This document shows, one piece after another, positions 14,783 through 61,519 of a DNA stretch of 64,000 bases. Positions within the stretch are counted from its first letter, which is position 1; each line of letters begins with the position of its first letter. The position numbers and the translations under genes are program-made. The notes under the pieces were generated by a model. It saw nothing but the letters and a program-made list of their open reading frames with translations. It was not told the DNA's origin and searched no databases. The stretch comes from an uncultured Acidimicrobiia bacterium. Lineage in GTDB: Bacteria > Actinomycetota > Acidimicrobiia > Spongiisociales > Spongiisociaceae. The stretch lies in NCBI GenBank assembly GCA_958295745.1, contig OY282370.1:1421724-1485723 (forward strand), written 5' to 3'.

Positions 14783-14806
14783 ATGAGTCACGAGGATTTT
14801 TCATGA
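14783..14806 (+). CDS. Seven-residue upstream ORF, ATGA-coupled to the oxoprolinase gene
   Basis: A 19-nt segment ending TTCATGAG is tandemly duplicated (14769-14787 and 14789-14807). As a result, the ATG in the first copy opens a frame MSHEDFS whose TGA overlaps the real ATG at 14803 (ATGA). Each ATG is preceded by the same weak GAGGA. The tiny frame could prime reinitiation on the long downstream gene or be a by-product of the duplication. There is no evidence that the peptide itself matters. Confidence 0.35.
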   Translation: MSHEDFS

Positions 14807-33565: not shown

Positions 33566-33608
33566 CGTCCTCCCGTCCCGTTGCGCGATCAAGGGTAGCC
33601 ATCCTGAA

Positions 33609-33624
33609 AGCGCAACAAGGCGCT
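33609..33624. promoter_or_regulatory. Inverted repeat in ImmA/CD-NTase divergent promoter region
   Basis: AGCGC and GCGCT, separated by six bases, lie 44 nt upstream of the regulator start and 55 nt upstream of the CD-NTase start. This is a candidate operator for the XRE domain. The CD-NTase gene has a good ribosome binding site, AAAGGAG, at about 33668-33674. Confidence 0.35.
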
Positions 33625-33679
33625 CCTTCTGTTATGCTTTTCAGAGCTTGTCCAAGATTTTCGTAACAAAGGAGAAATC

Positions 33680-35143
33680 ATGACCGCAAGAGAGCTCATC
33701 GAGGAAATCCGTAAGCAGATCGCCGCGGACGATGCTGCTTTGGTGGAGGCCCGGCGGCGGCGTGATGCGGTCCGCGCGGCGGCGCAGACCTTCTCGGGTG
33801 CCCTTAGAACATTCAGATCCGGCTCCCTGGCCACCGGCTTCGTGAATCATCCGGTGGCGGACGCCGACTGCGGGCTGGTGCTCGACAGGCGGTGCTACAC
33901 GAATCTGGGACCGGATGGAGGTGGTGAGTTGCCTTATACCATCGTGGATCGAATCCACGATCACATTCGGCCCGTACTCCGACTGACAGATCCGGCGGTG
34001 TCAATACGCAAGATGAAGAGGGGCCTCCTCGTAGGGTTCAATGCGCCCCTCGACGCGGAACAGGATCCCACCGTCGATCTCGTCGTCGCCCTGAACCGCC
34101 GGGAGGATGACGCCCTTTGGATTCCCAACCTCGACAGGAACCGGTGGGATCCCAGCCACCCAGAGAAGCATGTAGACCTGTTCACTTCCGGTTCTCCGGA
34201 GCTTCGTCGGACGAGAGCGCAGGTCGCCCGACTGGCCAAGGCACAGGTCAAGCAATTCAGCCCGCCGACCCTGTCGAGCTTCAATGTGGCCGCCCTCGTC
34301 TGGGAAGCGATTCAGCAACCCGAGCCGCTGTTTTCTGCCTTGCGCAGGCTCTTCGCCCATGCCGCCGCCACACTTCCCTGGCGGTTGACCTGCGATCCCG
34401 CTGGCGTCTCGGATCCGATACCCATTCCCGATGACCTCGACACCGAGGTCATCGCCCACTGCCTCCAGCAGGCCGCAAGCGGATTGGAGCAGGCGATCGA
34501 GGCAGGGAACGACGAGGAGAAGGTCCTGTTGGCTCTTGCCAAGGTTTTCCCGAACTACCTGGAAAAGCCGAGTGTCTTGAAGGAACGAAGCCGCATGGCA
34601 TCAAAGTTGCGGCGGGCCGCGCCTGTCGCCCTGTCCGGGCTCGGCACAGTACCTCCTACCACTTCATACGGAGGCAGGGGCATGAGTCGGCGACGCCGTG
34701 TTATAGGAAAGCCGCCTAGCGGGCCTTGGTACGGAGATTTCAAGCAGCGCCGCGGCTTCGAGCGCGGATTCTGCCCAGCCGCTCCGGGGCGGTCGGGTCG
34801 AGCGTGCCGTTATAGGGGAGCTCTCGGTTACATGTACAGGCTACTGGTGGATGTGCCCACTTATGGGGTCCGGAAGGTGTCGATCTTCTTCCCTAGGAAA
34901 TATCCTATGGCCCCCAGCGTTTTCGCCGATGGACCTCACTTGAGCCGCCACCGTTTCAGGGATGGAAGCTTGTGTATGTGGTACCACAGTGATCCTCCCG
35001 AGAGGCGCTGGCGCTTTAGCGACGGCCTTCCTCTCTTGGTCGGCCACACCGAGCTGCATCTGTTCAAGGAGAGTTGGTTCATCGACACCGGTGAGTGGCT
35101 CGGTGCCGAGATACTTCATCAACCGGGCCCATCCGCCTCATGA
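33680..35143 (+). CDS. CD-NTase fused to a C-terminal E2-like domain
   Basis: This is a 487-aa protein. Residues about 1-300 look like a CBASS-type cyclic oligonucleotide synthase: Gly48-Ser49 is followed after eleven residues by Asp61-Ala-Asp63, and the third catalytic Asp is Asp133 in PTVDLVVAL, matching the CD-NTase/OAS active-site pattern. Residues about 375-480 look like a prokaryotic ubiquitin-conjugating (E2) fold: YRLLVDVPTYG strand, FFPRKYPMAPS (the YPxxP turn), then HRFRDGSLCMW with candidate catalytic Cys432, and a downstream helix. A poorly conserved Arg-rich linker (about 300-375) joins them. In CBASS, E2 activity primes the synthase by conjugating its C-terminus. Here both would be in one chain, without an E1 or JAB gene nearby. 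Confidence 0.72.
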   Translation: MTARELIEEIRKQIAADDAALVEARRRRDAVRAAAQTFSGALRTFRSGSLATGFVNHPVADADCGLVLDRRCYTNLGPDGGGELPYTIVDRIHDHIRPVLRLTDPAVSIRKMKRGLLVGFNAPLDAEQDPTVDLVVALNRREDDALWIPNLDRNRWDPSHPEKHVDLFTSGSPELRRTRAQVARLAKAQVKQFSPPTLSSFNVAALVWEAIQQPEPLFSALRRLFAHAAATLPWRLTCDPAGVSDPIPIPDDLDTEVIAHCLQQAASGLEQAIEAGNDEEKVLLALAKVFPNYLEKPSVLKERSRMASKLRRAAPVALSGLGTVPPTTSYGGRGMSRRRRVIGKPPSGPWYGDFKQRRGFERGFCPAAPGRSGRACRYRGALGYMYRLLVDVPTYGVRKVSIFFPRKYPMAPSVFADGPHLSRHRFRDGSLCMWYHSDPPERRWRFSDGLPLLVGHTELHLFKESWFIDTGEWLGAEILHQPGPSAS

Positions 35144-35646
35144 CCACTCTTTGGTGGCCTGTGATCGCCGCCGCGGGCGTTTCCGCTGTTGTCTCTCTGA
35201 CGGTCCTGTGGTGGAACATTCGACAGGCGAGGCTGGACCGCCATCGTGAGCTGTTCGGGCAGGCGTTTGCGGCCGTTGCTGACTACCGAGAGTTTGCATA
35301 CATCGTCCAACGACGTGACGGCTCAGATGAAACTCGGACTGCCATCAACCGCGACCTGAGCAAAGTTCAATCGGAATTGCACCGTTACGAAGCCATGATC
35401 CGGGTGGAATCACCGCGTGTAGCCGTTCGATACTCGGAGTTGATACGCTGGACCCGAAGGGTCGCCGGCGCAGTCATCAAGAAAGGATGGAGTACTCCAC
35501 CTGCTCAGAGCGACGAGCGGATGAATGTTTCGTCTGTAGACCTTTCACCCCTCGATTCGTATGAGGATGGCTTTCTCCGCGCTGCGCAGAGGCATCTGTA
35601 CTTTCGGTGGAGGATCGTTCGCCGCTCAGAGCGCCCGGGTCGATGA
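35140..35646 (+). CDS. Single-pass membrane protein, putative effector of the CD-NTase module
   Basis: This 168-aa protein has one N-terminal transmembrane segment (about residues 5-26, ending WWNIRQ) followed by a mostly helical, charged cytosolic part; residues about 28-90 could form a coiled coil. Its ATG overlaps the stop of the CD-NTase-E2 gene (ATGA), so both are made together. Membrane proteins are common effectors in CBASS operons, where a cyclic nucleotide triggers membrane disruption, but I recognise no known effector domain. The in-frame start at 35095 would lie inside the previous gene and is less likely. Confidence 0.62.
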   Translation: MTTLWWPVIAAAGVSAVVSLTVLWWNIRQARLDRHRELFGQAFAAVADYREFAYIVQRRDGSDETRTAINRDLSKVQSELHRYEAMIRVESPRVAVRYSELIRWTRRVAGAVIKKGWSTPPAQSDERMNVSSVDLSPLDSYEDGFLRAAQRHLYFRWRIVRRSERPGR

Positions 35647-40340: not shown

Positions 40341-40766
40341 ATGAGTTTCGAATTCGATTACGGGTCCTCAGGTGGCGGATCGGCGGGCGGCCGCCGCCCG
40401 GGGTCGAGAGGGCGCCGGGCAAGGCCCCCGCGCCGCCGCGGCGGGATGATCTGGGTTCTGTGGTTCTGCGCCGCTCTTCTCGGTGCGGGCGCGTCCGTAT
40501 CCCTGGCGGTCGTCGCGGGCGAGGTGCGGGCCATCGGCGACGCCGCCTTCTGGAGGGCCGCGATAGGGATCGCGGCGGCGCTCCTTCTGTCCCTCCCCGG
40601 GTTCTCCTTCTATTGGCTCGCCCGCTCCAGGGAACACCACAACTGGCACGAACGGGTGTGGCGCCCAACCGCCTTGGTCAGGATCTCGTTGCTTTCCTCG
40701 GTTGGAGCGGCCCTCTGGTGTGGATACCTGATCGCCGTACGCGTGGCGCGTGAGTGGCCGACATGA
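40341..40766 (+). CDS. Small two-TM membrane protein with FEF-YG tag, first gene of the tubulin/VWA operon
   Basis: This 141-aa protein starts MSFEFDYGSS, then a Gly/Arg-rich stretch (about 12-36). Two or three hydrophobic segments follow (about 38-60, 72-92, 115-132). The same opening MxFEFxYG plus Arg-rich linker plus TM layout occurs in the last protein of the operon (49757), though the rest is unrelated. The start at 40341 is preferred over GTG 40332, whose bases overlap the ribosome binding site GAGGTG. Its stop overlaps the ATG of the VWA gene. Function unknown; a membrane scaffold or recruitment role is a guess. Confidence 0.72.
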   Translation: MSFEFDYGSSGGGSAGGRRPGSRGRRARPPRRRGGMIWVLWFCAALLGAGASVSLAVVAGEVRAIGDAAFWRAAIGIAAALLLSLPGFSFYWLARSREHHNWHERVWRPTALVRISLLSSVGAALWCGYLIAVRVAREWPT

Positions 40767-43210
40767 GCAGGGCGCGCCGGGTATGGGAACGGTGGATCGG
40801 TTCGGTACAGGTCATCATCTGGGCCGTGGTGATCGTCGCCGCCGGGGTCATGTCTCCGGTCTTGCCTTCCGCCGCCCAGGAATCATCGAGCGGCCAGACC
40901 GCCGGAGGGTGGTGCCCGGCCGGTACGGAGTCGTTGGATGTACTGATCCTCATGGACGAGTCGAGGTCTCTGAGAAGGACGGATCCGGACAGGAAAAGAA
41001 TTGAGGCGGTGGAGACCCTCATCGGCTCGTTTGAGGAGGAGTCGGCCAGAGGAGTGCGGGTAAGGGTGGCATTAGCCGCCTTTGGAACCGAATTCGATCT
41101 GCGAAAGGATTTCACTGACCTGAGGGCGGAAGGCACGGAGAATCTCATCGCCGAGGTCAAGGGGTTCAACCAGGACGACTGGAACACCGACTACGTGCTC
41201 GCCCTATACGGCGTGCTCGGTCTTGACTGGTCCGCCGAGTGCAACAAGGTCGTCTGGTACACCGACGGTGAACACGATTTGACCGACGCACCCAGGGGCG
41301 GCAGTGTCAGCAGGGCGCCTCGCGACTACGACGCTCAGGGGCGGGAGATTGAGAACGCAACCGTCGGCCGCGCCGTACAGGAGTTGCTGATTCCGGCGGT
41401 GTGCGGCGGCGAAGAGGCAGATGAGGTCGCTTCTGGATACGGTGATCTGTCCGACAAGCTCAAGGAACGCGAAGTGGAGATCGAATTCGCCCTCTATTAC
41501 TTCGGTGAGCTTGAGGAGGGCGATTCCAAGGCTCTTATCGAGAGTATGGAGAGGAAGGAATGCGGAGACGGCATCGAAATTGTTACGCGAGAGATTGATC
41601 AAGGAAAGACCATTGTCATCGAGCCCCCTATCACTACTACCACTATAACTACTATTACTCCTACTACTACAACCACGACCACTCTCCCACCACCTCCTCC
41701 GCCGGTCTGCCAGGGGCTTCCCGAACCGCAGTGGAACGCCGGAAGAGACATCGTATGGTCGGGCGTCCTTCCTGATGGAATAGCGCCGGCGTTCGTGCGT
41801 TCGGTGATCATCAGGGCGACCGGAGACCGCCCTAGATTGTCGACCGACCACCCTTCCGCCGTCGAGGAAGAAGACGGCGCCGCCCGTCGGCTCACATTGG
41901 ACTTTTCGGAACAGCCCTTGTCTTCGTATTCCCCGGCTGATATCGCTGTTCAGGGAGAGGGGGTAGACGAATCTTGCCTGGCGGTGGTGCTCAACCCGCC
42001 CGCCCTCGAAGCGCGTGTCGTGACCAGTCCGATCTTCCCCGACACCCCTGGCGTCGAGATACAGGTCCAGACAGACGGAACCTCCCTCGCAGAAGCCGAT
42101 GAGGAATACCTGACGGTGTCTATAGACGGCGGAGAACACCTGAGGCCCGATGCGGTCGACGGGGGGCGGTTACGCCTGCCGCCGCAGGATGAGGTCGGCG
42201 ATCATGCCTTCGAGGTCAGGCTGGAGTCCCTCTATTCCGATCCGGCCATTGCATCCGGCGCTTTCACCGTCTCTCCCAAACCGGACGGCCCCATCCTCGG
42301 ACTGGCCGGATCCGGGTTGGAACCGGTCGCGGACACCGAGTTCACCATCCCGATCACCATCGACGACGAAGGTCGGGAGGGAGAGATCCGCCTGCTGCCC
42401 GCCGATCCCATCGTGGGCACCGACGGGGCGGCGGTGAGCGTGGAGGTTCTGTTCCCGGACGGCAGCCCCGTATGGAGCTCGGGCGATCCCTTGCCCGACG
42501 CCCTCACCGTTGTCCTCGGCGATTCCGTTCAGACCCCTGAAGACCACGTTCTTCACTTCGACTACGAAAGCGACCCATCGGACCCGGCCGGCGATCTTCA
42601 GAAGATTCCGATCGCTGTGCCGGTCGACATCGACCATCCCCGCAACCTGGTGCTCGAGGCGTTCATCACGGCCGCCTTGCTGTTCTTGTTGTTGCTGATC
42701 ATCTGGGCCTGGCTCTTCGGGATCAACCGGATCGCCGGACGCATCCGCCGCCCGAGAAGGATGCGCTACAGCCGCTTCCGCGTCGATGAAGGGTGGGCGC
42801 TCGCCGCCGACCTCACACGCGATAGTCACCGCTCGGTCAAACACACCCCGGGTTGGCTCAAAGGGGGTCGGCTGCGGGCCACGCGCAAGACGCCCTTGCG
42901 GGCATGGCGCTTTCCCTATGTGGATCTGTCGATGGAAGGCAGCCGCCGGTTCATAGGAATGATCGGCGGGGGTGTGGTCGCTACAGAGATTTCAGGCCGA
43001 TCGGAGAAACTACCATCCGAAAGTCGGCTGCACAATCCCATCGTGCTGGTAGACGTGTCCGATGGGCCGCCCTTCGAAGGAGTGGTGATGGCGCCCATCG
43101 ATTCATCGAGAGACAGGTCGAGGCCTGCCGAGGAGCAGCTCGCCGAGCACGTACGGAGGGCGCTTGAGCAGCTGCCTAGACCAGATCAGATAACACGCGA
43201 CCTGAAGTAG
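40763..43210 (+). CDS. Membrane-anchored von Willebrand factor A protein
   Basis: This 815-aa protein has a signal peptide or N-terminal anchor (to about residue 35), then an extracytoplasmic VWA domain (about 53-280). Its metal-ion-dependent adhesion site is intact: DESRS at 65-69, a Thr near 141 (NTDY) and Asp in YTDGEHD near 166. A Thr-then-Pro linker (about 290-315) leads to beta-rich domains, a transmembrane helix at about 633-655 (rich in Leu/Ile) and a basic cytosolic tail of about 160 residues. VWA domains bind protein partners. The tail could link to the tubulin-like protein encoded next, eight bases downstream. The gene overlaps its predecessor by ATGA. Confidence 0.82.
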   Translation: MSRARRVWERWIGSVQVIIWAVVIVAAGVMSPVLPSAAQESSSGQTAGGWCPAGTESLDVLILMDESRSLRRTDPDRKRIEAVETLIGSFEEESARGVRVRVALAAFGTEFDLRKDFTDLRAEGTENLIAEVKGFNQDDWNTDYVLALYGVLGLDWSAECNKVVWYTDGEHDLTDAPRGGSVSRAPRDYDAQGREIENATVGRAVQELLIPAVCGGEEADEVASGYGDLSDKLKEREVEIEFALYYFGELEEGDSKALIESMERKECGDGIEIVTREIDQGKTIVIEPPITTTTITTITPTTTTTTTLPPPPPPVCQGLPEPQWNAGRDIVWSGVLPDGIAPAFVRSVIIRATGDRPRLSTDHPSAVEEEDGAARRLTLDFSEQPLSSYSPADIAVQGEGVDESCLAVVLNPPALEARVVTSPIFPDTPGVEIQVQTDGTSLAEADEEYLTVSIDGGEHLRPDAVDGGRLRLPPQDEVGDHAFEVRLESLYSDPAIASGAFTVSPKPDGPILGLAGSGLEPVADTEFTIPITIDDEGREGEIRLLPADPIVGTDGAAVSVEVLFPDGSPVWSSGDPLPDALTVVLGDSVQTPEDHVLHFDYESDPSDPAGDLQKIPIAVPVDIDHPRNLVLEAFITAALLFLLLLIIWAWLFGINRIAGRIRRPRRMRYSRFRVDEGWALAADLTRDSHRSVKHTPGWLKGGRLRATRKTPLRAWRFPYVDLSMEGSRRFIGMIGGGVVATEISGRSEKLPSESRLHNPIVLVDVSDGPPFEGVVMAPIDSSRDRSRPAEEQLAEHVRRALEQLPRPDQITRDLK

Positions 43211-43218
43211 GGAGAATC

Positions 43219-46200
43219 ATGCTTAGAAAGTTCCTGATAATCGGACTGGGCGGTTCCGGCGGCCTGACCTTGCGCTACCTGAAGCAGCATCTGGAGGAGA
43301 GGCTCGAGGAGATCGGCTGGGACGAAGGGATGCCCAAAGGCTGGCAGTTTCTCCATATTGACACTCCGACCCGACCGGAAAACCCGCCGTTGCCGGGGTC
43401 TCCGGCACTGCTGGATCCCGACGAGTATCTTCCTCTGGTTAGTCCGGGGATCAACCTCGAGACCATCGTCGGCCGCTTGGAGGCAAAGGGACAGGACTTC
43501 GCGGGCCGGTTGGTGCCCTCCCATATGTACGGTATTCCCATCCGTGAGGGTGCTGGCCAATATCGGGCGGTGGGCCGGATTATAGGTTTGTATTACGCCG
43601 ACCGTATAAAGCGACGTCTCACCATCAAGAGAACAGCGCTCATGTCGGCCGGGGCAGCCCCCCAACTAGACCTGCTGGCCGAACAGTTCTTTGGCGACCG
43701 GTTGACGGGTGAGTCCTCGGATCCGGTAGCTATTGTTATTTCGTCTTTGGCGGGTGGCACCGGGGCGGGCATCCTGATCGACGTATGCGATATACTCCGA
43801 GCGGGCGGACGAGAATGGTTGGGCCATTCGATCGGCATTCTCTACTCGGCAGATGTTTTCGCCGAACTTGGCCCCGACGCTGGTGCCGGTATCCAGCCCA
43901 ACACTGCTGCGGCAGTGGCTGAGCTGCTCCATGGGTACTTTGCCGACGGGTTATTCACCCCGCCGGATGGGGGTGCTATCCAGCAACGTTCCGGTCCGGC
44001 TTTTCCATATCTAGTCGGTCATGCCAACACCAAGGGCGTGAGCTTCGGCAACCAGGTTGCTGTTTACCGGTTCATGGCGCGTTGCCTCTCGGCGGTGATG
44101 ACGGATTGGCACATCCAGAACGAATTTACCACCAGGATGATCGCCAACTGGGACGTGCGGACCGGGAAATTCCCGGATAGCTCAGATTCGTGGATGTTGC
44201 CTTCGCCTCACCGTTACCAGGGGGCTCTCCAGGCCCTCGGGTTTGCGGAGGTGGACCTCGGGGTGAGCCGGTTGAGGGCGTACGCCGAACAACGGATCAC
44301 CCGTGATGCGGTCGAGTGGGTGCTCGATGGACACATGAAATTGGCCGAGGAGTGGCCTGACTACGAGAGAGCTACCGTGGAGGAGGTAGTCGAGGGTCTG
44401 GCCGATCAGGCTTTCACCAGGTTCCTGAACGACTGTGGCCTCAACGAACGAGGACGCGAGCACAACCAGATCCTCGACGCGATCGCAGTGTCTGATGAAG
44501 AACTCCGAGCTGAATGCACCCGCGTTGCCAGGGAAGTCCATGAGGGCGGTCGAGAACATTTCGGAAAGAAGGCCCGCGTCGGGGAATGGGTGGACTTTAT
44601 CGTCGATGAGGTGAGAGCGCGTCGGGCTGGAGTACTCAAGTATCTGGAAGACCGTCTTCGGGACGCCTGTCTGAAATGGGTGAATAACATCCCGGATCGC
44701 ATTCTGGATGTGGTAGGGGAGACCTTGGCGGAGCAAGGGGCAGAAGTGGCTCTGAAACTCCTCGCCAAGACCGACGCGGAAATGGACCACGTGAAAAAAG
44801 AGCTCCACGGCGAGCGACAGGAGGAGCTCACCCTGGCCGAGTACCTCCGGTCGGATGTGTCGGCTGCCATAGAGGCTTCGCGCGGTACGCTGTCCAAAGA
44901 CAGCGAGTTGGTCGAAAAGGCCCTGCGAGCGTCTATCCAAACCGGCATCGTTCGCCGCTACAACGCCGAGCACCGCGCACTGGCGGCGCGACTGTCCGAG
45001 GACCTGCGTAGCGGGGTGCTTGATCCCTTGACTAGAGCCCTGCGCAACGCGGTCGATGAGCTGCGCTTGGCCGTCGAGGCCGACAAAGGGGCGGCCGTGT
45101 CCACATCGATTGAGGATTGGCCTCGTCATAATCCACCCTCCGACCAGCGCGTTCCCGATGCCCTGAAACCGGGGGGGAGCGTCATGTTGGTGATTGATGC
45201 GGACGAATTTCCTGACCTGTTCGACGACTTGACTGCCAGGTCAACCGGCCTCGAAGAAAGGATGGACGCTCGGCGTTCGGTTCGGCGGACCGTGATATCG
45301 GGCGACGCGGACAGGCCCGTGATGGGGCTGTGGATCGACACCGACTCCATATGGACGGCGTCCGAGTGGTTGACGGTCGACGCACCGCCCAACAAAGCCT
45401 CGTTCACGGTGCGTATCTATCGTGACGATCTTCTAGAGCGGTCCCGAGCATGGTTGAATACCGACGGATCGGCCTGGAAGGTATTCCTTTCCCAAGGGTT
45501 GCGCGGTTACCTCTCCGACCAGCTACCTCCTGCCGAGCGCGTCCCTCGGGAAGAGCAATTTTTCAGTGCCCTCGTCTCTGCCTTTGAGGCAGCTGAGCCC
45601 CTGGCTTCTATTGACCCCGATATGCTTCACGAGGTTCATCCTGGATCGGGACGTTCTGGATCGCCACTGGATTTTCGTCCTCACACCAGCCCGATTCCAG
45701 TGGCCGGACTTCCCGTCGAGAAGCAGGTGCGCGATTTCCTGGTCGGTCGTTTCAAGGGCGTCCAAGACAACTACAAGCAGGCAGTCGATGATGCCCTCGA
45801 TCAGTCCGAGCGCGAGACCAGGGTGGCGGTATACGCCTCTTTGGGGGGAGCTCTGCATCCGATGGTGTTCGAATCTCTCAACAAGCCCATTGCCGAGGCG
45901 TGGGAGCGGGCGCGCAGAGACTCGTCCCTGACTCGTTTCTGGCAAGCGAGAAGATCGCGCTTGTTGTGGATGGGAGCTCCCATACCCCGCCCGGCTCTGC
46001 AGTCCATGGTGAGAGGGTGGTTCATTGGCCGGTTGCTGGGCCTGATCCAGATCCAGGGTAACCGTGCTGGTTTCGAAACCGAAGCAGGCCCCTTCGAGTT
46101 CGACACCATGCTTCCGGTTCCGGGACGCCAGCCGGTGGCGTTTCTTGCCACCCTCTTGGAGTCTTTACCGCTGGCAGTTCCAGTAGCCGTTCACAATAGG

Positions 46201-46572
46201 CAACCGGGAATATATTTGAGACCGTACACCCATTTGATCGAGTGGGGGAGCGAATCGTACACGTCGGATGTGGAGTCCTTCCGGCATCCCAGCCAGGCGC
46301 TCTCCGACTGGTTGGAGTATGGAACCACTCCGGGCGACAGGGAACCTGTGATAAGAGGTCCAAATCGTCCGGCCCGAAGGAAAGCGGTGATTGATCATCT
46401 TCAGGAGACGATCGGTTACTACAGGCGACAGGCCGAGATCGATCGTAGTAGAGACCAAACCCCGAGGAATGCCTGGCTCGGCATCGCTGAGATCATCGAC
46501 GAGGCGTTGATCGAGATCATTAGTTGTTTGGAAGACGAGGAAGACCGGGACAACAGAAAGGCACCGTTATGA
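43219..46572 (+). CDS. Tubulin/FtsZ-like GTPase-superfamily protein, giant
   Basis: This 1,117-aa protein has FtsZ/tubulin-like N-terminal features: a first glycine-rich loop in FLIIGLGGSGGLTLRYL (about 5-21) and the signature loop SSLAGGTGAGILIDV (about 175-189), equivalent to the GGGTGSG T4 loop that contacts GTP phosphates. This is the layout of the 'Tubulin like' family (PF13809). The C-terminal ~700 residues are helical and Arg/Glu-rich without recognised domains. Family members have been linked by genome context to VWA proteins and membrane remodelling. GGGAG precedes the ATG. Its stop overlaps the ATG of the polytopic protein gene. GTP binding is inferred; polymerisation is unknown. 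Confidence 0.8.
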   Translation: MLRKFLIIGLGGSGGLTLRYLKQHLEERLEEIGWDEGMPKGWQFLHIDTPTRPENPPLPGSPALLDPDEYLPLVSPGINLETIVGRLEAKGQDFAGRLVPSHMYGIPIREGAGQYRAVGRIIGLYYADRIKRRLTIKRTALMSAGAAPQLDLLAEQFFGDRLTGESSDPVAIVISSLAGGTGAGILIDVCDILRAGGREWLGHSIGILYSADVFAELGPDAGAGIQPNTAAAVAELLHGYFADGLFTPPDGGAIQQRSGPAFPYLVGHANTKGVSFGNQVAVYRFMARCLSAVMTDWHIQNEFTTRMIANWDVRTGKFPDSSDSWMLPSPHRYQGALQALGFAEVDLGVSRLRAYAEQRITRDAVEWVLDGHMKLAEEWPDYERATVEEVVEGLADQAFTRFLNDCGLNERGREHNQILDAIAVSDEELRAECTRVAREVHEGGREHFGKKARVGEWVDFIVDEVRARRAGVLKYLEDRLRDACLKWVNNIPDRILDVVGETLAEQGAEVALKLLAKTDAEMDHVKKELHGERQEELTLAEYLRSDVSAAIEASRGTLSKDSELVEKALRASIQTGIVRRYNAEHRALAARLSEDLRSGVLDPLTRALRNAVDELRLAVEADKGAAVSTSIEDWPRHNPPSDQRVPDALKPGGSVMLVIDADEFPDLFDDLTARSTGLEERMDARRSVRRTVISGDADRPVMGLWIDTDSIWTASEWLTVDAPPNKASFTVRIYRDDLLERSRAWLNTDGSAWKVFLSQGLRGYLSDQLPPAERVPREEQFFSALVSAFEAAEPLASIDPDMLHEVHPGSGRSGSPLDFRPHTSPIPVAGLPVEKQVRDFLVGRFKGVQDNYKQAVDDALDQSERETRVAVYASLGGALHPMVFESLNKPIAEAWERARRDSSLTRFWQARRSRLLWMGAPIPRPALQSMVRGWFIGRLLGLIQIQGNRAGFETEAGPFEFDTMLPVPGRQPVAFLATLLESLPLAVPVAVHNRQPGIYLRPYTHLIEWGSESYTSDVESFRHPSQALSDWLEYGTTPGDREPVIRGPNRPARRKAVIDHLQETIGYYRRQAEIDRSRDQTPRNAWLGIAEIIDEALIEIISCLEDEEDRDNRKAPL

Positions 46573-49500
46573 GCGCTCAGCGTGTCATTCTAATCACACA
46601 TGGAAGCCCGGAAACACAAGCCGCGGTCGGCCTGCTTACCGAGTGGGCCCGCCACGGCCTCGTCCATCCTTTCATCTCCTACACCGACGACCAAACCGCG
46701 TTCTGTGTAGGGACCCGCGGGGTCGGTGAACCAACGTCGGTGTTCGCGATACTCGGTCGGCAAGACTTGGAAGTGGTCCGTGTGGCGGCGCTGGTCGGCC
46801 ACGACCGAAAGGAGGCGGGCGATCTCGCGTCGAGGACACGCGATCTGGTCGACAAGATCAGGGATGACTTAGCACCGGGCGGCTTACAGGTGGTGGAGGT
46901 GCGGATATGGGCGCCTTACGATCCCCGTTCGGAGGGCGACTGGACCGCGCCCGAAGGTGCCTTCTCCACCGCGGCGGAGGCCAACCTGGTCTTGGTGCCC
47001 GAGGACAGACAAACGGGGGCCAGGGTGGGCATCCCGCTCGCCCGCTCTGACGACAGCACCAGTGCCTACGGGTCGCATGTGGCCACCGAAACGGCGACCG
47101 CGCTGGGGATGTGGTCGAGCATGTCCGAGGCGCCGGTGGACGCCTTGGAGGCTGGGGTTATCGGCTACGGCGAGCCCAAAGTACATCTGACCCGCTCCTT
47201 CGTGCGGATCGCGGAGATACCCGCCGTCAGCCTGGCCGGCGCCGCCGATCACGGTGGGATGCTCAGGGTGCCGCCCGGATGCACGGAAGCTCCCTATCCG
47301 TTGGAGAGCATCGCCTATGCGCAAGACCGCATAGGAAGCCTGCTCGACCGTGAGCTCATCAAGACCTCGCCTATCCAACGTACCAAACATCTCGGCTTGG
47401 TCCAGCTCATACGCGAGGTAGGCCGCGGGATGGTGAGCTCACTTCGCTACATGTTTTCGATCTCCGGGGATGTGGTCGATGCGCTACGGGATATGACCGG
47501 TCGCGTCATGCAGGAGGCGGTAGGCCGCGACTCTGTCCTGCGGGTGATCTGGCGCGGCAAGCCCTCCGAGGGCGAGGAGGAGCGGGCCATAGACACCGAG
47601 AAACTGATCGAAACCATCCGTCGGGGCCGGGCTTTGGAGGGAGGGGTCCGAATCGACCAGAAACTCTGGACCGATGTAGGGCAAGCGGTCTTCTCTTTGG
47701 CCGACGGCGGGGAGATGCCCGAAGGGGTGGCGCCGCAGAGGATCGACGATCGCAATGTGATAGTCAAAGAGGTCGGGATGATCGCTCCCGCCCACGGTCC
47801 CGGCTTGGCCGACGATATTCGGGCGGATTCCCTCGACGAGGCGCCCGCCACCCTGCTGGGGCGGCTGGGCGCCCGGCTGCGTCGAGCCGAAGGCCAGAGC
47901 CGCCGCCGATTCGAGATCCTGGTCGAGCGGTCCGAGAACCTGTTCGAAGTAGAACAACCCCCGGCGCTCACCACCGCCGGGGTGGTCACCTCGGTTTCCA
48001 TCACCTTGTTCGTTGTCCTGTTGCTGCTCCTCACCGGTTTGGTGGAGCTGACAGGCATCACAGGAATGGGAGGGACGGCCCGAGCCTGGATATGGGTGGG
48101 CGTCACCGCGGTCTATGCATTGGGGTTGGTGTTCCTTTCCCAAGCGGTGGTGGCCCGTTTCAGGGCCGAATCTCCGGCGCAGCCGGACGGGTCCCCCCCT
48201 CCGGCGACCGAGGCCGAAGAGGAAGAAGGGGAAGGGGCCGCGGACGAGCCGGAAAGCGAGGGAGCGGAAGATCACCCCTCACCGTCCACCTTTCGGTTGT
48301 GGTGGAGTAAGGCCACCAAGTGGTCGGCCGACTTGCCCAATTTCAACGCCGTTGTCTTGTTGGCGGTGCTGGCGGGCGTCATCGCCGCTGTGGCGACTGC
48401 GGTGGTTTCTCGGTTGGGCGTCGGAGAGACGGCGACCGGGACAGGCGTCATCGACACCGTGGCCACCGCGGTGGCCAGAGGGCTGTTGGCCAGGGAAGAC
48501 CTGGCGATCGGTATCACGGTGACCCTGATCTTCTATGCAATCCTCCTCGCCTTCCAGCTCGACAGGGAGGCCCATCGCTCTCTGGAGAGCTTCCGTCAAG
48601 TTCGGCTGTTGTTCTTCTTCACGGCGATCTACGGCGCCTTCGGTCTGGTCGGATTGCTGGGGCGCGACAACGGATGGTACGGGGAAGCTCGGTCGGAGGG
48701 GTTCGGCGACCTCTGGATTGGCATGGCAGTGCTCCTGACTTCGATCCTCCTCCTGCTGATGGCTATGGCCCACGACCGTTACAGGAAGGACAATCGAGCG
48801 CGAGACAAGGTATCCGACCTCGAACGCGAGATCGCGGCGGCCGTCGATACGCAGTGGGTCACCGAGGAGGCCCTCGAACAGTTCATAGGGTCGGCGGCTG
48901 CCTGGGCGGCTGTCATGTGGAAGCCCTTCGGCGAGTTCGACCCCGGCGAGGGCCGCACCCGCGACGGATTCGCCTTCGAGGTTTTGAAGGCGGAGACGCG
49001 GGCCTTTTCGGTGACTCCTCTCGGCGCGATGTCGATGCGGGAGCGCATGATGAAGGAGCTGGCCAAGCCGGGCTGGCTCAGCCGCCGCTACCAGACGGCG
49101 GCCGAGGCGTACCGCCGCAGGCGGGCGGTCGAGAAAGGCGAAGAGCCGGACGACATACTGCCGCCCGACCAGGATGCTCGTGAGGTGCGTACCGTGCCGC
49201 CAAAGGATCGCCCGAAGGTGAGCGGCCGCTGGCGGTTTGTGAACGACCTCACGGAGGGAATCTACGACCGGGAACTCTCCCGCGTTCTCGACGCCCTCGA
49301 TCATGCCAACGCGGCGGAATGGGTCTACAAGCAGGAGGGAACCCTCGAAGCCTCGGAAACGGGCGGCGAGTCCCTAGAACAGTATCTGCGGGCGGTGGTT
49401 CCCCAAGGCGCACCCGAGGTGTCCTATGTCTATTTCGGGGAGGACGCGCGGCTGGACGCCGACCGCTCATACCGGCCGGTGCTGTGGTGGCCGTCCGCTC

Positions 49501-49739
49501 TGCTCGACCAACCCGACGGCCGATCCTTGCAGTGCAACATACGAAGCCTGGTCAACGGGGATCTGGCGATCATGTCTGTCCGTCACGACCGGGCCGGTCC
49601 GTACCCTCAGAGCGCCCTGTTCGGGCCCGCCACAGGCGAGGACGAGGGTGAAGAAGACCCGGATCCCGGCGGCGGCCGGTCCCTGCGGGGGCAGGGACTG
49701 AGGCGGTTGCGCGGAGACGGGCGGATCCCGGAACTGTAG
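46569..49739 (+). CDS. Large polytopic membrane protein of the tubulin/VWA operon
   Basis: This 1,056-aa protein is translationally coupled (ATGA) to the tubulin-like gene. Residues 1-460 are soluble, opening with an alternating strand pattern (RVILITHGSPETQ) that looks like an alpha/beta domain but matches no family I recognise. About six transmembrane segments follow at roughly 468-492, 505-527, 591-613, 646-664, 677-697 and 715-735. An acidic Glu/Pro linker (about 531-574) lies between the second and third. The C-terminal ~320 residues are soluble and charged. It is probably the membrane platform of the system. No channel or enzyme signature was seen. Confidence 0.75.
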   Translation: MSAQRVILITHGSPETQAAVGLLTEWARHGLVHPFISYTDDQTAFCVGTRGVGEPTSVFAILGRQDLEVVRVAALVGHDRKEAGDLASRTRDLVDKIRDDLAPGGLQVVEVRIWAPYDPRSEGDWTAPEGAFSTAAEANLVLVPEDRQTGARVGIPLARSDDSTSAYGSHVATETATALGMWSSMSEAPVDALEAGVIGYGEPKVHLTRSFVRIAEIPAVSLAGAADHGGMLRVPPGCTEAPYPLESIAYAQDRIGSLLDRELIKTSPIQRTKHLGLVQLIREVGRGMVSSLRYMFSISGDVVDALRDMTGRVMQEAVGRDSVLRVIWRGKPSEGEEERAIDTEKLIETIRRGRALEGGVRIDQKLWTDVGQAVFSLADGGEMPEGVAPQRIDDRNVIVKEVGMIAPAHGPGLADDIRADSLDEAPATLLGRLGARLRRAEGQSRRRFEILVERSENLFEVEQPPALTTAGVVTSVSITLFVVLLLLLTGLVELTGITGMGGTARAWIWVGVTAVYALGLVFLSQAVVARFRAESPAQPDGSPPPATEAEEEEGEGAADEPESEGAEDHPSPSTFRLWWSKATKWSADLPNFNAVVLLAVLAGVIAAVATAVVSRLGVGETATGTGVIDTVATAVARGLLAREDLAIGITVTLIFYAILLAFQLDREAHRSLESFRQVRLLFFFTAIYGAFGLVGLLGRDNGWYGEARSEGFGDLWIGMAVLLTSILLLLMAMAHDRYRKDNRARDKVSDLEREIAAAVDTQWVTEEALEQFIGSAAAWAAVMWKPFGEFDPGEGRTRDGFAFEVLKAETRAFSVTPLGAMSMRERMMKELAKPGWLSRRYQTAAEAYRRRRAVEKGEEPDDILPPDQDAREVRTVPPKDRPKVSGRWRFVNDLTEGIYDRELSRVLDALDHANAAEWVYKQEGTLEASETGGESLEQYLRAVVPQGAPEVSYVYFGEDARLDADRSYRPVLWWPSALLDQPDGRSLQCNIRSLVNGDLAIMSVRHDRAGPYPQSALFGPATGEDEGEEDPDPGGGRSLRGQGLRRLRGDGRIPEL

Positions 49740-49756
49740 AGACGGTTGGCGGTCTG

Positions 49757-50818
49757 ATGGGTTTCGAGTTCGAGTATGGGCGTCCGGACAAGAAACCCGA
49801 ACCCGCTTCACGCCCTCCTCGCCGTCCCCGGCGTCGCGGAGGATTCGATCTGCGGCGGCTTCCCGATCTATGGCGGCGGTTGCCCCGATGGGGGAAGGCA
49901 ACCGCTGTAGTCGTTCTCATCCTGGCGGCGTCGACGATCATCACCGGCCGGGATCGGGTGCCGGAGATGACCCCCGACGACATAGCGGCGGCCCTGCCGG
50001 CGGTCGATACGAATCCGGCGACGACCGCTCGACCGGCAACCACCAGGCCGGCAACCACCCGACCTGCGCCCACCGAACCCGAGCGGCCGCCGGAAACGAC
50101 CGCGGTTGCTGTAACGCCGACTACCTCCCCGCCCGAGCCTCCGGACACGACCATCGCGCCGCCCCCCGCAACAGTTGCCTCTTCCGCTCCGCCTGCGCCT
50201 CCGTCCACGACCGTGGACTGGGCCGAGTTGGCCCTGTCCGTCGTGCTCGTCCAAGCCGACGGGTGCTCATTCGTCCCTTCCGGTGTGTCCAGCACAGGCT
50301 CCGGTACGGTGGTGCTGGACGGAGGCTACGTGCTCACCAATGCGCATGTGGTCGTCGACATCGACGGGAGCGGCAAGGTATGCCGGGACCTGACGGTCTG
50401 GTTCACCAGATCCTTCGAGGAGGAGCCGTCCGATTGGGTGGAGGCGAACCTCGTCGCGGAGGACGGGCGGCTCGACTTGGCGGTACTGCAGCTGAGGGCG
50501 CCGGTTCCCGCCGCCATGAGCATCAGGATCGCCGAGCAGCGGTTGGAACCGGGGGAGGCCATCCGCATCCTCGGATACCCGGGTATGGGCGGCATGACCA
50601 TGACCCTGACCAGGGGGGCGTATTCAGGAATAGTCGACTACGACGGCGAGACATACATAAAGACCGACGCCGACATCAGCGAGGGCAACAGCGGCGGGGC
50701 GGCCTTCGACGAGGCGGGGGTGTTCATAGGGGTTCCCACCGCGGGCAACGAACAGGTGGGCCTGCTGATACCCGCCGGGGTAGCCGAACAGTTCCTGGCC
50801 AGTGCACTAGCGTCGTAA
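49757..50818 (+). CDS. Membrane-anchored trypsin-like (S1C) serine protease with FEF-YG tag
   Basis: This 353-aa protein opens MGFEFEYGRP, then a Pro/Arg-rich stretch, one transmembrane segment (about 45-65), a Thr/Pro-rich linker (about 82-150) and a trypsin-fold domain. The catalytic triad is present: His197 (TNAHVV), Asp240 (RLDLAVL) and Ser312 (EGNSGGAAF). No PDZ domain follows, unlike HtrA/DegP. The protease should face outside the cytoplasm, on the same side as the VWA domain. It ends the operon, 17 nt after the polytopic protein gene, and shares its N-terminal tag with the first gene product. It might process the VWA protein or an external target. Confidence 0.84.
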   Translation: MGFEFEYGRPDKKPEPASRPPRRPRRRGGFDLRRLPDLWRRLPRWGKATAVVVLILAASTIITGRDRVPEMTPDDIAAALPAVDTNPATTARPATTRPATTRPAPTEPERPPETTAVAVTPTTSPPEPPDTTIAPPPATVASSAPPAPPSTTVDWAELALSVVLVQADGCSFVPSGVSSTGSGTVVLDGGYVLTNAHVVVDIDGSGKVCRDLTVWFTRSFEEEPSDWVEANLVAEDGRLDLAVLQLRAPVPAAMSIRIAEQRLEPGEAIRILGYPGMGGMTMTLTRGAYSGIVDYDGETYIKTDADISEGNSGGAAFDEAGVFIGVPTAGNEQVGLLIPAGVAEQFLASALAS

Positions 50819-53560: not shown

Positions 53561-53894
53561 ACACCCCCGCCGCCGATTCGTTTCCGTCCGGTTCCGATCG
53601 CAAGAAGTTCCAGAAACGAGGTGATCGACTATCTGTCACACCCACCATATACAATATAGAAACGTAGAACAACGCAGCTGTCACAGCGGCACCGGACCGC
53701 GGTGATGCGACATCTGGCTGAGGCCGAATCCTCACGGGATATCGGGAACAGGCCCCCGCGGCCGCCCCATCCCAACAACGGTTTGGTGGAGGCGGGGGTG
53801 GGCCCGGCGAAGCCGGCCCCGGTGCGGCGAAAGTCGCGAAAAACCGGGCCGCCGCTCGGTGCCGTTCCGCCCTCCTGCGGCGTTCGAGGCCGCC
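53561..53894. other. Intergenic region between permeases and HyuA-HyuB gene
   Basis: The first half is AT-richer, with a run around 53640-53665 (ATATACAATATAG) that might include a promoter -10. The second half is a GC-rich dispersed repeat copy (53791-53853). No gene is supported, although the in-frame extension of the next gene begins at GTG 53859. Confidence 0.4.
53791..53853 (+). repeat. GC-rich dispersed repeat, copy 3
   Basis: It shares GGCGGGGGTGGGCCCGGCG plus AAGCCGG and, further on, CGCGAAAAAC with the minus strand of 23417-23484. It lies in the leader region of the HyuA-HyuB gene. Confidence 0.45.
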
Positions 53895-56800
53895 GTGGGT
53901 AGCCGGGTCGGGGCCGATGTGGGCGGCACCTTCACCGACGTGATCGTGGAGGGGCCGGACGGACGCACCGCCGCCCTCAAGGTGCTTTCCACCCCTCCTT
54001 CCTACGACGAGGCGGTCACGGCCGCCGTAGACGCCTTGGTGGGGGCCTCCCCCGATTCGGCCCTCCGCCCGGTCGACCAGGTGATACACGGCACCACGGT
54101 CGCCGCCAACGCCATCCTGGAGCGGCGGGGCGCCCGCCTGGCGATGGTCACCACCGAGGGGTTCCGGGACGTGCTGGAGCTCCGCCGGGTGAGGATGCCC
54201 CACCTCTACAACCCCTTCTGGCGCAAGCCCCCTCCCATCGTGGAGCGGCGCCTCCGGTTCGAGATCGGCGAGCGGATGCTGGCCGACGGAACGGTGCACC
54301 GCCCGGTCGACGAGGACCAGGTGAGGGAGGTCGCCGCCCGCCTCCGGGAGGAACAGGTGGAGGCGGTGGCGGTCTGCCTGCTGCATGCCCACAAGCATCC
54401 GGCCCACGAGGAGCAGGCGGCCCGGGTGCTCAGGCGGGAGATGCCCGGCGTCCACGTGGTGCTGTCCAGCGAGGTGCTGCGGGAGCAGAACGAGTACGAG
54501 CGCTCCGCCACCGCCGCCCTCAACGCCTACGTGATCCCGATCATGGCCTCTTACCTGCGCGACCTGGCGGACGGCCTCGAAGGGATCGGCGTCGACGCCC
54601 CCCTGCTGATCATGCAGTCTTCGGGCGGCGCCATGACCGCGTCCGATGCGGCCCGCCGACCCGTCTACGCCCTCGAGTCCGGTCCGGCGGCCGGGGTGGT
54701 GGCCGCTCAGGGCCTAGCCGGGCGGCTAGGAATCGGGAACGCCGTCTCCTTCGACATGGGGGGCACCACCGCCAAGGCCTCGCTGATCGAAGGGGGGCGG
54801 GTCACCCTGAGCAGGGAGTACGAGGTGGGCGCCGACCTCTCGGTGGGCACCCGGCTGCTGCGCGGCTCCGGCGAGCTCCTGCGGGTGCCGAGCATCGACA
54901 TCGCGGAGGTCGGGGCCGGAGGGGGGAGCATCGCCTGGGTGGACGCGGCCGGCGGCCTCCAGGTGGGCCCCCGCAGCGCCGGAGCGTCTCCCGGCCCGTC
55001 CTGCTACGGCTTCGGAGGCGCCGACCCCACCGTCACGGACGCCGACGCGGTGCTCGGCTACGTGCGGTCGGGTCCGCTGGCGGGCGACGTTTCCATATCG
55101 CCCGAACTGGCCCGCCGGGCGCTGGAGGCGGTGGCCGGGCCGCTGGGCGTCACTGTGGAGGAGGCGGCCCTAGGAGTCCACGACTTGGCCAACGCCCGGA
55201 TGATGCGGGCGCTGCGGGCGGTCTCGTCGGAGCGGGGCCGCGACCCCAGGGAGTTCGCCCTGATCGCTTTCGGGGGGGCGGGCCCCATGCACGCGGCCAG
55301 CCTCGCCGACGAGCTCGGCATCGACACCGTGGTGGTGCCGCCCGATGCGGGGGTGTTCTCCGCCGCCGGCCTCCTCCACGCCCGGCCCGAGTACCACGAC
55401 GTGAGGTTCTGCGAGCTGGACGCCAAGGACGCCCGATCGACGGATGCGATGTCAGGGCTGTTCGCCGAGCTGGAGTCGGAACTGGAGTCGAGCATCCCGG
55501 ACGGGGAGGCCGAATGGGTGCGGTCCGCCGACGTGCGCTACCGGGGCCAGAGCTGGGACATCGAGGTCGAGATCCCCGGAACGGACGGCGTGACCCCCGC
55601 GGACCTGGAGGAGCTGGCCGACGGCTTCGAGGACCGCCACGAGCAGATATACGGCGTCCGCAAGGGTTCCGAAGCCCCGATCCAGGTGCGCGCGGTCCGC
55701 TTGGCGGCCCTGGGCCCGGCGCCCCGCCCCGCCCCGGACGGAGGAGAGAACGGCGGCCCGGCGCCCGCCGCGGAGACCGCCCGCCCCAACGGTTCGCCGC
55801 GGCCGATTGATTCGCGCTCCGCCGGTACGCGCTCCGCCCTGTTCGGCCTGTCGGAGGGGTATGTGGACGCTCCGGTGCTGACCAACCGGGCCGGTCTGGG
55901 GCCGGACGGGATGGAGGGGCCGCTCCTGATCGACGAGTACGACACCACCATCGTCGTTCCTCCCGGATGGAACGCCCGCCTGCACCCCTCGGGGGCGGTT
56001 TTCCTGACCCGCGAGGCGGGTGCCGGGGCGGCGGTCGAGCACACCGGCGCGGTGACCCGCCAGATCGTGGCCAACGCCCTCGCCTCGGCGGCCGACGAGA
56101 TGGCCACCACCATCTTCCGCACCGCCCACTCCACCGTGGTGCGCGACGCCATGGACTTCTCCGCCGCCCTGCTCGGCCCCACCGCCGAGACCGTGGCGCA
56201 GGCGGTGACCATCCCCTTCCACCTGGGGGCGATCCCGACCGCGGTCGAAGCCCTGCTGGCCCGGTTCCGCGACGACATGCGGCCCGGCGACGTGTTCATC
56301 ATGAACGACCCCTTCGACGGCGGCATGCACCTGCCGGATGTCTTCGTCATCAAGCCGGTCTTCTACGAGGGGGCGCTCATCGGATACGGGGTGGCGACCG
56401 CCCACCACGGCGACATCGGAGGGCGGCTGCTGGGCAGCTCGGCGACCGACAACACCGAGGTGTTCCAGGACGGCCTCCGCATCCCCTGGATGCACCTGTA
56501 CCGGGAGGGCCGCCCCGTGGAGGAGGTGCACGCGCTGATCAGGGCCAACGTGCGGGTCCCCCACATGATGTTCGGCGACCTGGGGGCGCAGGTGGCGGCC
56601 TGCTCGGTGGGGGAACGGGCGCTGCTTTCCATGGCCGAACGGTACGGGGCCGGGCGGCTGGCCGAGCTGATGGACGGGTTGCTGGACTACACGGAGGATC
56701 TGATGCGCCGGGAGATATCGTCCTGGCCGGACGGGGCCGCTTCCTTCACCGACTACCTGGACTCCGACGGCATCGAGAGCCGCGACGTGGCGATCAGAGT

Positions 56801-57767
56801 GAAGGTGACCATCGACGGCGGCGAGGTGGAGGTGGACTTCTCGGATTCGGACCCGATGGTGGCGGGTTCGCTCAACGCCACCCGCTCCTTCGTCTTGGCC
56901 ACCGCCTACCACTGCGTGATGTCGGCCGCGGCTTCCGAGTTCCCCAACACGTCGGGGGCCTTCCGCCCGGTGCGGGTCGTGACCCGTCCGGGCACCATCA
57001 CCCATGTGGTCTACCCGGGGGCTTCCTCGATGAGGGGCGTCACCGGGTTCAGGGCCTTCGATGCGGTGAACGGGGCGCTGGCCCGGCTGGTTCCCGACCG
57101 GGTGCCCGCCGCTGGGGAGGGGGGCAACACGGTGGTGATCCTCGGCGGTCATAGGGAGGACGGCGAGCCGTTCGTCTACTTCGAGCTCATGGTGGGCACT
57201 TGGGGCGCCACCCCGCAGAACGACGGCAACGACGGGCTGAGCAACCCGATCGCCACCGCCGCCAACGTGCCCATCGAGGTGGCCGAGGCCGAGTTCCCGA
57301 TCATCGTCGAACGCTACGGCCTGGTGCCCGACAGCGGAGGACCCGGCCTCCACCGGGGCGGTCTGGCCCTCGAGAAGGCCTGGCGGCCGCTGGTGCCCAC
57401 CTCCCTGTTGATCCGCTCGGACCGCCAGCGCCACCCGCCCTACGGACTGATGGGCGGGCGGCCCGGCGGGCTGTCCTCCAACACGGCGGTGCGGCTGTCC
57501 GGGGAGCGCCAGGTGCTCCCGCCCATGTTCAGCGACGGCTTGGCCGCCGGCGAGCTGTACCATCATGTCCAGCCGGGCGGGGGCGGCTGGGGCGGCCCGC
57601 TGGATCGGGAACCGGAGATGGTGGCCGACGATGTGAGGAACGGCAAGGTGGGGCGCAGGGCGGCCCTGGACGAGTACGGGGTGGTGCTCGACGGCGGCCT
57701 CGAAGTGGATGCGGAGGCCACCTCCTCCGCCCGCCGCCGGTTGCGCGACCCGGCCTCGCCGGGGTAG
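53895..57767 (+). CDS. Hydantoinase/oxoprolinase HyuA-HyuB fusion
   Basis: This protein of about 1,290 aa has a HyuA half (about 1-700) with ADVGGTFTDV (7-16) and FDMGGTTAKAS phosphate motifs, and a HyuB half starting near residue 721 (RQIVANALASAADEM) with NDPFDGGMHLPD and AHHGDIGG. A low-complexity Pro/Ala/Gly/Arg joint (about 615-650) lies shortly before the end of the HyuA half. It probably performs ATP-dependent opening of a cyclic amide. GTG 53895 (GAGG upstream) is chosen; GTG 53859 is also in frame. It is only moderately similar to the 5-oxoprolinase-like protein at 14803 and resembles N-methylhydantoinase/acetophenone-carboxylase relatives more. It is followed by its cluster's ATPase gene 26 nt downstream. 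Confidence 0.85.
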   Translation: MGSRVGADVGGTFTDVIVEGPDGRTAALKVLSTPPSYDEAVTAAVDALVGASPDSALRPVDQVIHGTTVAANAILERRGARLAMVTTEGFRDVLELRRVRMPHLYNPFWRKPPPIVERRLRFEIGERMLADGTVHRPVDEDQVREVAARLREEQVEAVAVCLLHAHKHPAHEEQAARVLRREMPGVHVVLSSEVLREQNEYERSATAALNAYVIPIMASYLRDLADGLEGIGVDAPLLIMQSSGGAMTASDAARRPVYALESGPAAGVVAAQGLAGRLGIGNAVSFDMGGTTAKASLIEGGRVTLSREYEVGADLSVGTRLLRGSGELLRVPSIDIAEVGAGGGSIAWVDAAGGLQVGPRSAGASPGPSCYGFGGADPTVTDADAVLGYVRSGPLAGDVSISPELARRALEAVAGPLGVTVEEAALGVHDLANARMMRALRAVSSERGRDPREFALIAFGGAGPMHAASLADELGIDTVVVPPDAGVFSAAGLLHARPEYHDVRFCELDAKDARSTDAMSGLFAELESELESSIPDGEAEWVRSADVRYRGQSWDIEVEIPGTDGVTPADLEELADGFEDRHEQIYGVRKGSEAPIQVRAVRLAALGPAPRPAPDGGENGGPAPAAETARPNGSPRPIDSRSAGTRSALFGLSEGYVDAPVLTNRAGLGPDGMEGPLLIDEYDTTIVVPPGWNARLHPSGAVFLTREAGAGAAVEHTGAVTRQIVANALASAADEMATTIFRTAHSTVVRDAMDFSAALLGPTAETVAQAVTIPFHLGAIPTAVEALLARFRDDMRPGDVFIMNDPFDGGMHLPDVFVIKPVFYEGALIGYGVATAHHGDIGGRLLGSSATDNTEVFQDGLRIPWMHLYREGRPVEEVHALIRANVRVPHMMFGDLGAQVAACSVGERALLSMAERYGAGRLAELMDGLLDYTEDLMRREISSWPDGAASFTDYLDSDGIESRDVAIRVKVTIDGGEVEVDFSDSDPMVAGSLNATRSFVLATAYHCVMSAAASEFPNTSGAFRPVRVVTRPGTITHVVYPGASSMRGVTGFRAFDAVNGALARLVPDRVPAAGEGGNTVVILGGHREDGEPFVYFELMVGTWGATPQNDGNDGLSNPIATAANVPIEVAEAEFPIIVERYGLVPDSGGPGLHRGGLALEKAWRPLVPTSLLIRSDRQRHPPYGLMGGRPGGLSSNTAVRLSGERQVLPPMFSDGLAAGELYHHVQPGGGGWGGPLDREPEMVADDVRNGKVGRRAALDEYGVVLDGGLEVDAEATSSARRRLRDPASPG

Positions 57768-61445: not shown

Positions 61446-61448
61446 CCG

Positions 61449-61464
61449 TACCTCAAGAGGTACT
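61449..61464. other. 16-bp palindrome between convergent defence genes
   Basis: GTACCTC and GAGGTAC flank two bases, making a perfect palindrome just after the DUF262 gene stop. The loop is too short and no T run follows for a standard terminator, so a protein-binding site or chance palindrome is equally likely. Confidence 0.3.
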
Positions 61465-61519
61465 CAACGTGCTACATGATAGGCAAATGCGCACCGGGGG
61501 TTGACATTTATTAAACTGG

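Follow-up and report, generated by a model that had tools for sequence, protein, structure and literature searches.

Introduction

Tubulin-like proteins of the FtsZl1 type (Pfam family Tubulin_2, PF13809) are already known from two genomic settings. Makarova and Koonin (2010) read operons that join vWA and FtsZl1 genes to genes for membrane proteins as membrane-remodelling systems, and reported that the T6-H7 elements of FtsZl1 were not identified, with extreme divergence being one of the explanations offered; a reviewer queried whether FtsZl1 retains the tubulin elements needed for filaments (PMC2875224). In addition, Kaur et al. (2020) set out an actinobacterial tubulin theme of GAP1-N2 GTPase-centric systems, which are predicted to be conflict systems (PMC7159879). 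Here we analyse a five-gene operon at positions 40341-50818 of a 64,000-nucleotide stretch of DNA (hereafter the window, to which all coordinates refer unless a locus is named) from an uncultured Acidimicrobiia bacterium. This single-copy operon encodes a tubulin-fold protein with GTP loops, a transmembrane vWA protein, two membrane partners (u and M), and a serine protease with an intact catalytic triad. We interpret it as a protease-bearing variant, lacking GAP1, of the vWA-tubulin (FtsZl1) membrane machine of Actinobacteria, and put the probability of this reading, relay mechanism included, at about 45%; the anatomical part taken alone, meaning domains, topology, fold and gene order, is far more certain.

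The operon resembles the FtsZl1/vWA operons described in PMC2875224 in having a PF13809 tubulin, a vWA protein with an intact metal-ion-dependent adhesion site (MIDAS), and lineage-specific membrane proteins, but it lacks the OmpA protein, kinase and P-loop GTPase found there and has a protease added. In agreement with a first-pass annotation of this DNA, made by a model from the letters alone, no OmpA-type protein or separate P-loop GTPase is matched by Pfam among the five operon products. With the GAP1-N2 theme (PMC7159879), the operon shares a single tubulin gene whose product has a long helical extension, and a vWA protein bound to the membrane. Unlike that theme, it is without GAP1-N2, DO-GTPase2 and accessory genes p and q, and carries a membrane-anchored serine protease; the accessible text makes no mention of M or u. 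The annotation had cited the FtsZl1-vWA linkage, which was indeed known, and had overlooked the GAP1-N2/DO-GTPase tubulin theme. Within the literature searched, the definition of M and u as core partners is new, although M or u may be among the families listed as A1-A2 and B1-B9 in PMC2875224. Within the same literature, four further points are new: a class free of GAP1-N2, a protease branch that includes a fusion, the shared N-terminal motif, and the structural answer on the FtsZl1 fold.

Results

Operon organization

The five open reading frames are closely packed and co-directional on the forward strand, as annotated, with their boundaries now refined. The first gene, u (40341-40766), encodes a small membrane protein with about three hydrophobic helices, and its stop codon overlaps the start of the vWA receptor gene (40763-43210, with the ATG at 40763 being the most likely start) in an ATGA. 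An 8-nucleotide gap containing GGAG separates the latter from the gene for the 1,117-amino-acid tubulin-like protein (43219-46572), which in turn overlaps the gene for the 1,056-amino-acid polytopic protein M (46569-49739, start at 46569) in a second ATGA. The count of three junctions that are ATGA overlaps or shorter than 10 nucleotides is thereby borne out; the fourth junction, before the protease gene (49757-50818), is a gap of 17 nucleotides. Sigma-70 promoter and terminator scans gave signals no better than those of shuffled sequences, and an Rfam scan of the window gave no match.

In a Pfam scan of the five products, the tubulin-like protein matches Tubulin_2 with 135.8 bits (E 2.9e-39) against a cut-off of 27, and the protease matches Trypsin_2 (E 7.5e-24). 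The vWA protein matches VWA_2 just below the curated cut-off (E 1.8e-5) with its motif intact, and no Pfam family was found for u or M. The PF13809 gene is present once in the source genome, in which canonical FtsZ is encoded at a separate site.

Both tubulin domains are predicted in the FtsZl1 protein

An AlphaFold2 model built on an alignment of 56 sequences has a mean predicted local distance difference test score (pLDDT) of 90 and a predicted template modelling score (pTM) of 0.82, and its best Foldseek matches are CetZ, FtsZ and tubulins. VIA-align superposes the model (range 2-903) on CetZ with Z 24.8 and a root-mean-square deviation of 3.6 over 309 of 360 residues, and on tubulins with Z of about 21 over 330-360 residues. 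Because more than 300 aligned residues require part of the second tubulin domain, both tubulin domains are present in the model, where they are interrupted by long helices at residues 380-640 or thereabouts. The T1 phosphate loop GLGGSGG (residues 9-15; 43243-43263) and the T4 tubulin signature AGGTGAG (residues 178-184; 43750-43770), which contains the GGTGAG loop that the annotation had noted in the giant tubulin-like protein, are nearly invariant among the 56 sequences. A candidate T7 loop, ANWD (44143-44154), has its Asn310 conserved in 55 of the 56, although this mapping is tentative, being made by motif spacing and not by residue-level structural alignment. Searching the solved structures by sequence with the tubulin alignment gave no relevant match.

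The annotation had staked its system interpretation on a tubulin core in the predicted structure, and such a core is what the model contains. Moreover, the C-terminal tubulin elements thought to be missing from FtsZl1, according to PMC2875224, appear to be present in the model and split by the insertion, which favours the extreme-divergence explanation for the T6-H7 elements. As a result, the question of filament elements in FtsZl1, open since 2010, becomes directly testable from the model. Compared with CetZ, FtsZ and tubulin, the protein is alike in the fold of both domains and in its T1 and T4 loops, but differs in its length and in its large helical insertion.

The core operon is conserved across Actinobacteria

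Genomes with PF13809 number 10 among the 138 surveyed for the order, 14 among 247 for the class (about 6%), and 10 among 296 for the phylum, so that the distribution of the operon is patchy. A contig scan based on the tubulin alignment identified 79 loci, which are almost all actinobacterial and range from metagenome-assembled genomes (MAGs) of Acidimicrobiia to Mycobacterium, Corynebacterium and Rathayibacter; gene order was counted in the 71 loci with more than 3 kb on both sides. With iterated profiles, the vWA gene lies immediately upstream of the tubulin gene in 67 of these 71 loci and M immediately downstream in 70, the complete order vWA, tubulin and M being kept in 66; a recognisable u occupies the same place in 57. 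Because this gene order repeats in many genomes, the operon is not a chance arrangement, and the prediction that the genes form one co-conserved system, which was to fall if they failed to co-occur in other genomes, holds. The annotation had also presented the association with a protease and two membrane proteins as new. The protease is indeed restricted to a lineage, but M and u are standing partners throughout Actinobacteria and are therefore not special to the window.

On plasmids, distant tubulin genes are seen on two Rhodococcus replicons only. Five loci (L018, L042, L043, L044 and L046) have a distinct PF13809 type, in which a vWA protein of roughly 530 amino acids adjoins the tubulin and M cannot be recognised. 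In a near relative (L016, 6374-9623, on the same contig as L081) the tubulin gene lies in two overlapping frames of 775 and 386 amino acids, reflecting either a frameshift in the MAG or a decaying gene.

A protease follows the core where relatives carry GTPase genes

Further genes follow the core in 27 loci, including GAP1-N2 (PF20013) and DO-GTPase2 (PF19993), and in Mycobacterium, Corynebacterium and others it is this vWA-tubulin-M core that opens the GAP1/DO-GTPase operons. GAP1-N2 and DO-GTPase2 are both absent from the source genome in a search for which the C. glutamicum control was positive for both; a search for DO-GTPase1 (PF19975) gave no match in the control, and the statement of absence covers DO-GTPase2. 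GAP1-N2 is found in none of the 247 genomes searched as a sample of the class, whereas PF13809 is in 14 of 247.

At the position after the core where relatives have a GTPase control module, the window lineage has a protease gene. The operon protease is present in nine loci, as a separate gene in eight (the window, L015, L017, L053, L057, L066, L110 and L117) and as a fusion in L029. The separate gene starts -3 to +52 nucleotides from M in the seven loci other than the window. In L029 (3587-6838, reverse strand, next to the tubulin gene) a trypsin-like domain (Trypsin_2, E 1.3e-28) is fused to the C-terminus of M, where the single transmembrane helix (TM) before the protease places it, by prediction, outside and on the same side as the unfused enzymes. 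The count of nine excludes a nearby protease on the opposite strand in L027 and another 2 kb from M in L062. The protease and GAP1/DO-GTPase genes occur together in no locus. In a quick tubulin tree, computed without bootstrap, all GAP1 loci group in a single clade (100*), and a few changes, four if L062 is included, account for the distribution of the protease; 'replacement' of one by the other is accordingly a description of the pattern and not an ordered history.

The window protease is predicted to have a cytoplasmic N-terminus, one TM, a Pro/Thr linker and a Trypsin_2 domain outside. Its triad motifs are TNAHVV (50336), DLAVLQL (50474) and GNSGGA (50684), and the His-Asp-Ser triad is intact in 10 of 10 aligned protease domains. 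All nine unfused proteases (eight from operons and that of L027) are richer in lysine and arginine before the single TM than after it, and for this reason the protease is predicted to lie outside with its N-terminus inside. The enzyme resembles the membrane-anchored S1C proteases HtrA/DegS and MarP in its trypsin-like domain, intact triad and N-terminal TM, but has no detected PDZ domain and has a tubulin as operon partner; its best score against the HtrA/DegP/DegS equivalog models is 69.5 bits, short of the cut-off of 416.

The protease and u share an N-terminal motif. The u protein begins with MSFEFDYG, a stretch predicted to be cytoplasmic, and the protease with MGFEFEYG. The FEFDYG codons (40347-40364) and FEFEYG codons (49763-49780) are the two matches of the pattern TTYGARTTYGANTWYG, that is FEF[D/E]YG, in the 3.3-Mb genome, and both lie in the operon; a reversed-pattern control gave none. 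The nearest relative, L015, has NFEFEYG in u and GFEFDYE in the protease, and the u proteins of the protease-less relatives L016 and L011 have weak resemblances to the motif only. The simplest reading of these sequences is that the motif may be a common cytoplasmic docking tag.

Membrane proteins of the operon

Membrane localisation is predicted for four of the five products. The vWA receptor is predicted to consist of an N-terminal signal or TM, an extracytoplasmic vWA domain, a Thr/Pro linker, a beta-rich region, one TM, and a cytosolic C-terminal domain of about 150 amino acids. The intact DxSxS site noted in the annotation is the MIDAS DESRS at 40955, and DxSxS is retained in 84 of 85 members of the family. 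The u of the window is too diverged for the u profile and was assigned by synteny and by similarity to L015, L016 and L011.

M is predicted to have a cytosolic alpha/beta N-terminal domain, six TMs and a cytosolic C-terminal domain. The annotation was right about its size and TM count in the window, but by hydropathy most relatives (40) have two TMs and a subset including the window has five to seven; the six TMs are thus an elaboration, in the window clade and some relatives, of a mostly two-TM protein. The AlphaFold2 model of M (pLDDT 80, pTM 0.65) is confident in its N- and C-terminal domains. VIA-align matches the model to FtsZ chains with Z 8.2-9.6 over 218-227 of about 305 residues; the top match (Z 11.3) is a 399-residue chain, of unconfirmed identity, from a sperm doublet entry, and beyond these chains the next Z is 6.1. 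These values suggest that M itself may have a divergent tubulin fold without GTP loops, which is a lead and not an established assignment. Foldseek gave no significant match of M to the PDB or to viral models, a sequence search of solved structures with the M alignment gave no relevant match, and M has no T1 or T4 loop, since its conserved columns contain no glycine-rich loops and the candidate T4 site reads NLVxxPEDR. Comparing the M and tubulin alignments by profile also gave no match, a null result that is uninformative because the same method failed to relate the tubulin-like family to FtsZ.

A possible if rather improbable extension of this lead is that M belongs to the tubulin superfamily as a second member, embedded in the membrane. 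It would have lost its GTP loops, would carry its TMs between the two tubulin domains, and would form a heterotypic pair with the GTP-binding tubulin, the pair nucleating or capping a membrane polymer that gates the extracytoplasmic protease. Our literature search found no paper on a membrane-embedded tubulin, and M would be the first known to us if it has the tubulin fold.

Discussion

The annotation had proposed a polymer or GTPase in the cytosol, a platform in the membrane, and a sensor or protease arm beyond it; the predicted topology supports such an arrangement, with the tubulin in the cytosol and the protease outside. In the mechanism that we favour, the vWA ectodomain would sense a ligand or disturbance in the envelope, with its cytosolic tail and M keeping the tubulin-like protein membrane-bound. 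The tubulin could then assemble in a GTP-dependent manner and cluster the membrane platform, to which u and the protease would be recruited through their shared FEF[D/E]YG motif; assembly in the cytosol might thereby concentrate or activate the protease on the outer side of the membrane, and the result would be proteolysis of an envelope component or an incoming target. Because the operon is patchy, its setting is more likely to be a conditional response, either to phage or competitor conflict or to envelope stress, than housekeeping. The CBASS, HEC-05 and NsnB-like genes on either side of the window copy are in keeping with this view. In this lineage the core occurs with a protease but without the GTPases presumed to control it, so that the core is separated from accessory parts, and the lineage suggests a minimal four- or five-gene system for reconstitution.

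Several observations weigh against this relay. Our literature search found no experiment on any member of the system, and polymerisation, interactions and substrate are inferred. The protease is missing from the close relatives L048, L049, L050 and L081, which makes it an optional part, and its exclusivity with GAP1 does not represent many independent events because the GAP1 loci are a single clade. The FtsZ-type T7 aspartates, a further point of difference from CetZ, FtsZ and tubulin, are not conserved at the tentatively mapped candidate position in the 56 sequences, and the GTPase cycle may therefore differ. Finally, defence genes show no clear enrichment around other tubulin loci: strong defence matches number about 7 of 124 proteins flanking other tubulin loci compared with 3 of 124 in random regions of related genomes, both counts excluding mad3-type matches, which are found in both sets.

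Of the other explanations, the one that survives best, and which we consider possible but on balance improbable, is an anti-phage or inter-bacterial conflict system. The tubulin polymer would act as effector or containment device, with the protease as trigger or executioner, a scheme already put forward for the GAP1-N2 tubulin theme. The vWA-tubulin core is directly homologous to a theme classed as conflict systems, the distribution is patchy, and the window operon lies between a CBASS cyclase-E2 gene on one side and HEC-05 and NsnB-like genes on the other. Nevertheless, the conflict role of the GAP1-N2 theme is itself inferred in the literature, the defining core of that theme (GAP1 and DO-GTPase2) is missing here, and the four core genes match no PADLOC model, the protease domain alone matching protease components of other systems. 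A defence role is thus allowed, without statistical support, given that there is no clear excess of defence genes around other tubulin loci.

An envelope quality-control or stress relay, with the protease as a DegS/MarP-like regulator and the tubulin-like protein as a scaffold, seems to us unlikely. The resemblance of the protease to HtrA/DegS/MarP-type enzymes, its membrane anchor with the enzyme predicted outside, and the vWA ectodomain protein encoded in the same operon are all consistent with such a relay, but the operon contains no anti-sigma factor or regulator and many relatives have no protease. More doubtful again is the membrane-remodelling or vesicle-forming cytoskeleton of Makarova and Koonin (2010), with a protease that merely trims envelope proteins. 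vWA-FtsZl1 operons with membrane proteins were so interpreted in 2010, and both the two-domain tubulin fold and the four predicted membrane proteins would suit this role; on the other side, the operon has neither the OmpA-type nor the P-loop GTPase partners, nothing in the locus is a sign of membrane bending, and only about 6% of class genomes carry PF13809. A last explanation is that the protease gene adjoins the operon by chance and has no tie to it. Its absence from the near relatives L081 and L048 would agree with this, yet the explanation is very improbable given that the protease adjoins M in eight loci of divergent relatives (-3 to +52 nucleotides), is fused to M once (L029), and carries an N-terminal motif encoded elsewhere in the genome only in u.

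Neighbouring genes in the window

A CBASS-like locus at 32369-35646 encodes an oligonucleotide cyclase fused to an E2-like domain (33680-35143, E 2.9e-103), and an HTH-M78 peptidase gene (RmrA/CapH-CapP-like) lies divergently beside the cyclase-E2 gene. At the low-GC end of the window (59700-63424), a HEC-05 gene (GmrSD_N, E 2.3e-221) is convergent with a gene for an NsnB-like AAA_15/DUF3696 ATPase (E 3.5e-70). Ordinary genes also lie between the defence genes, including those for an S15 peptidase, ABC transporter parts and a hydantoinase. The window contains two fused hydantoinase A/B (oxoprolinase) genes, at 14803-18432 and 53859-57767.

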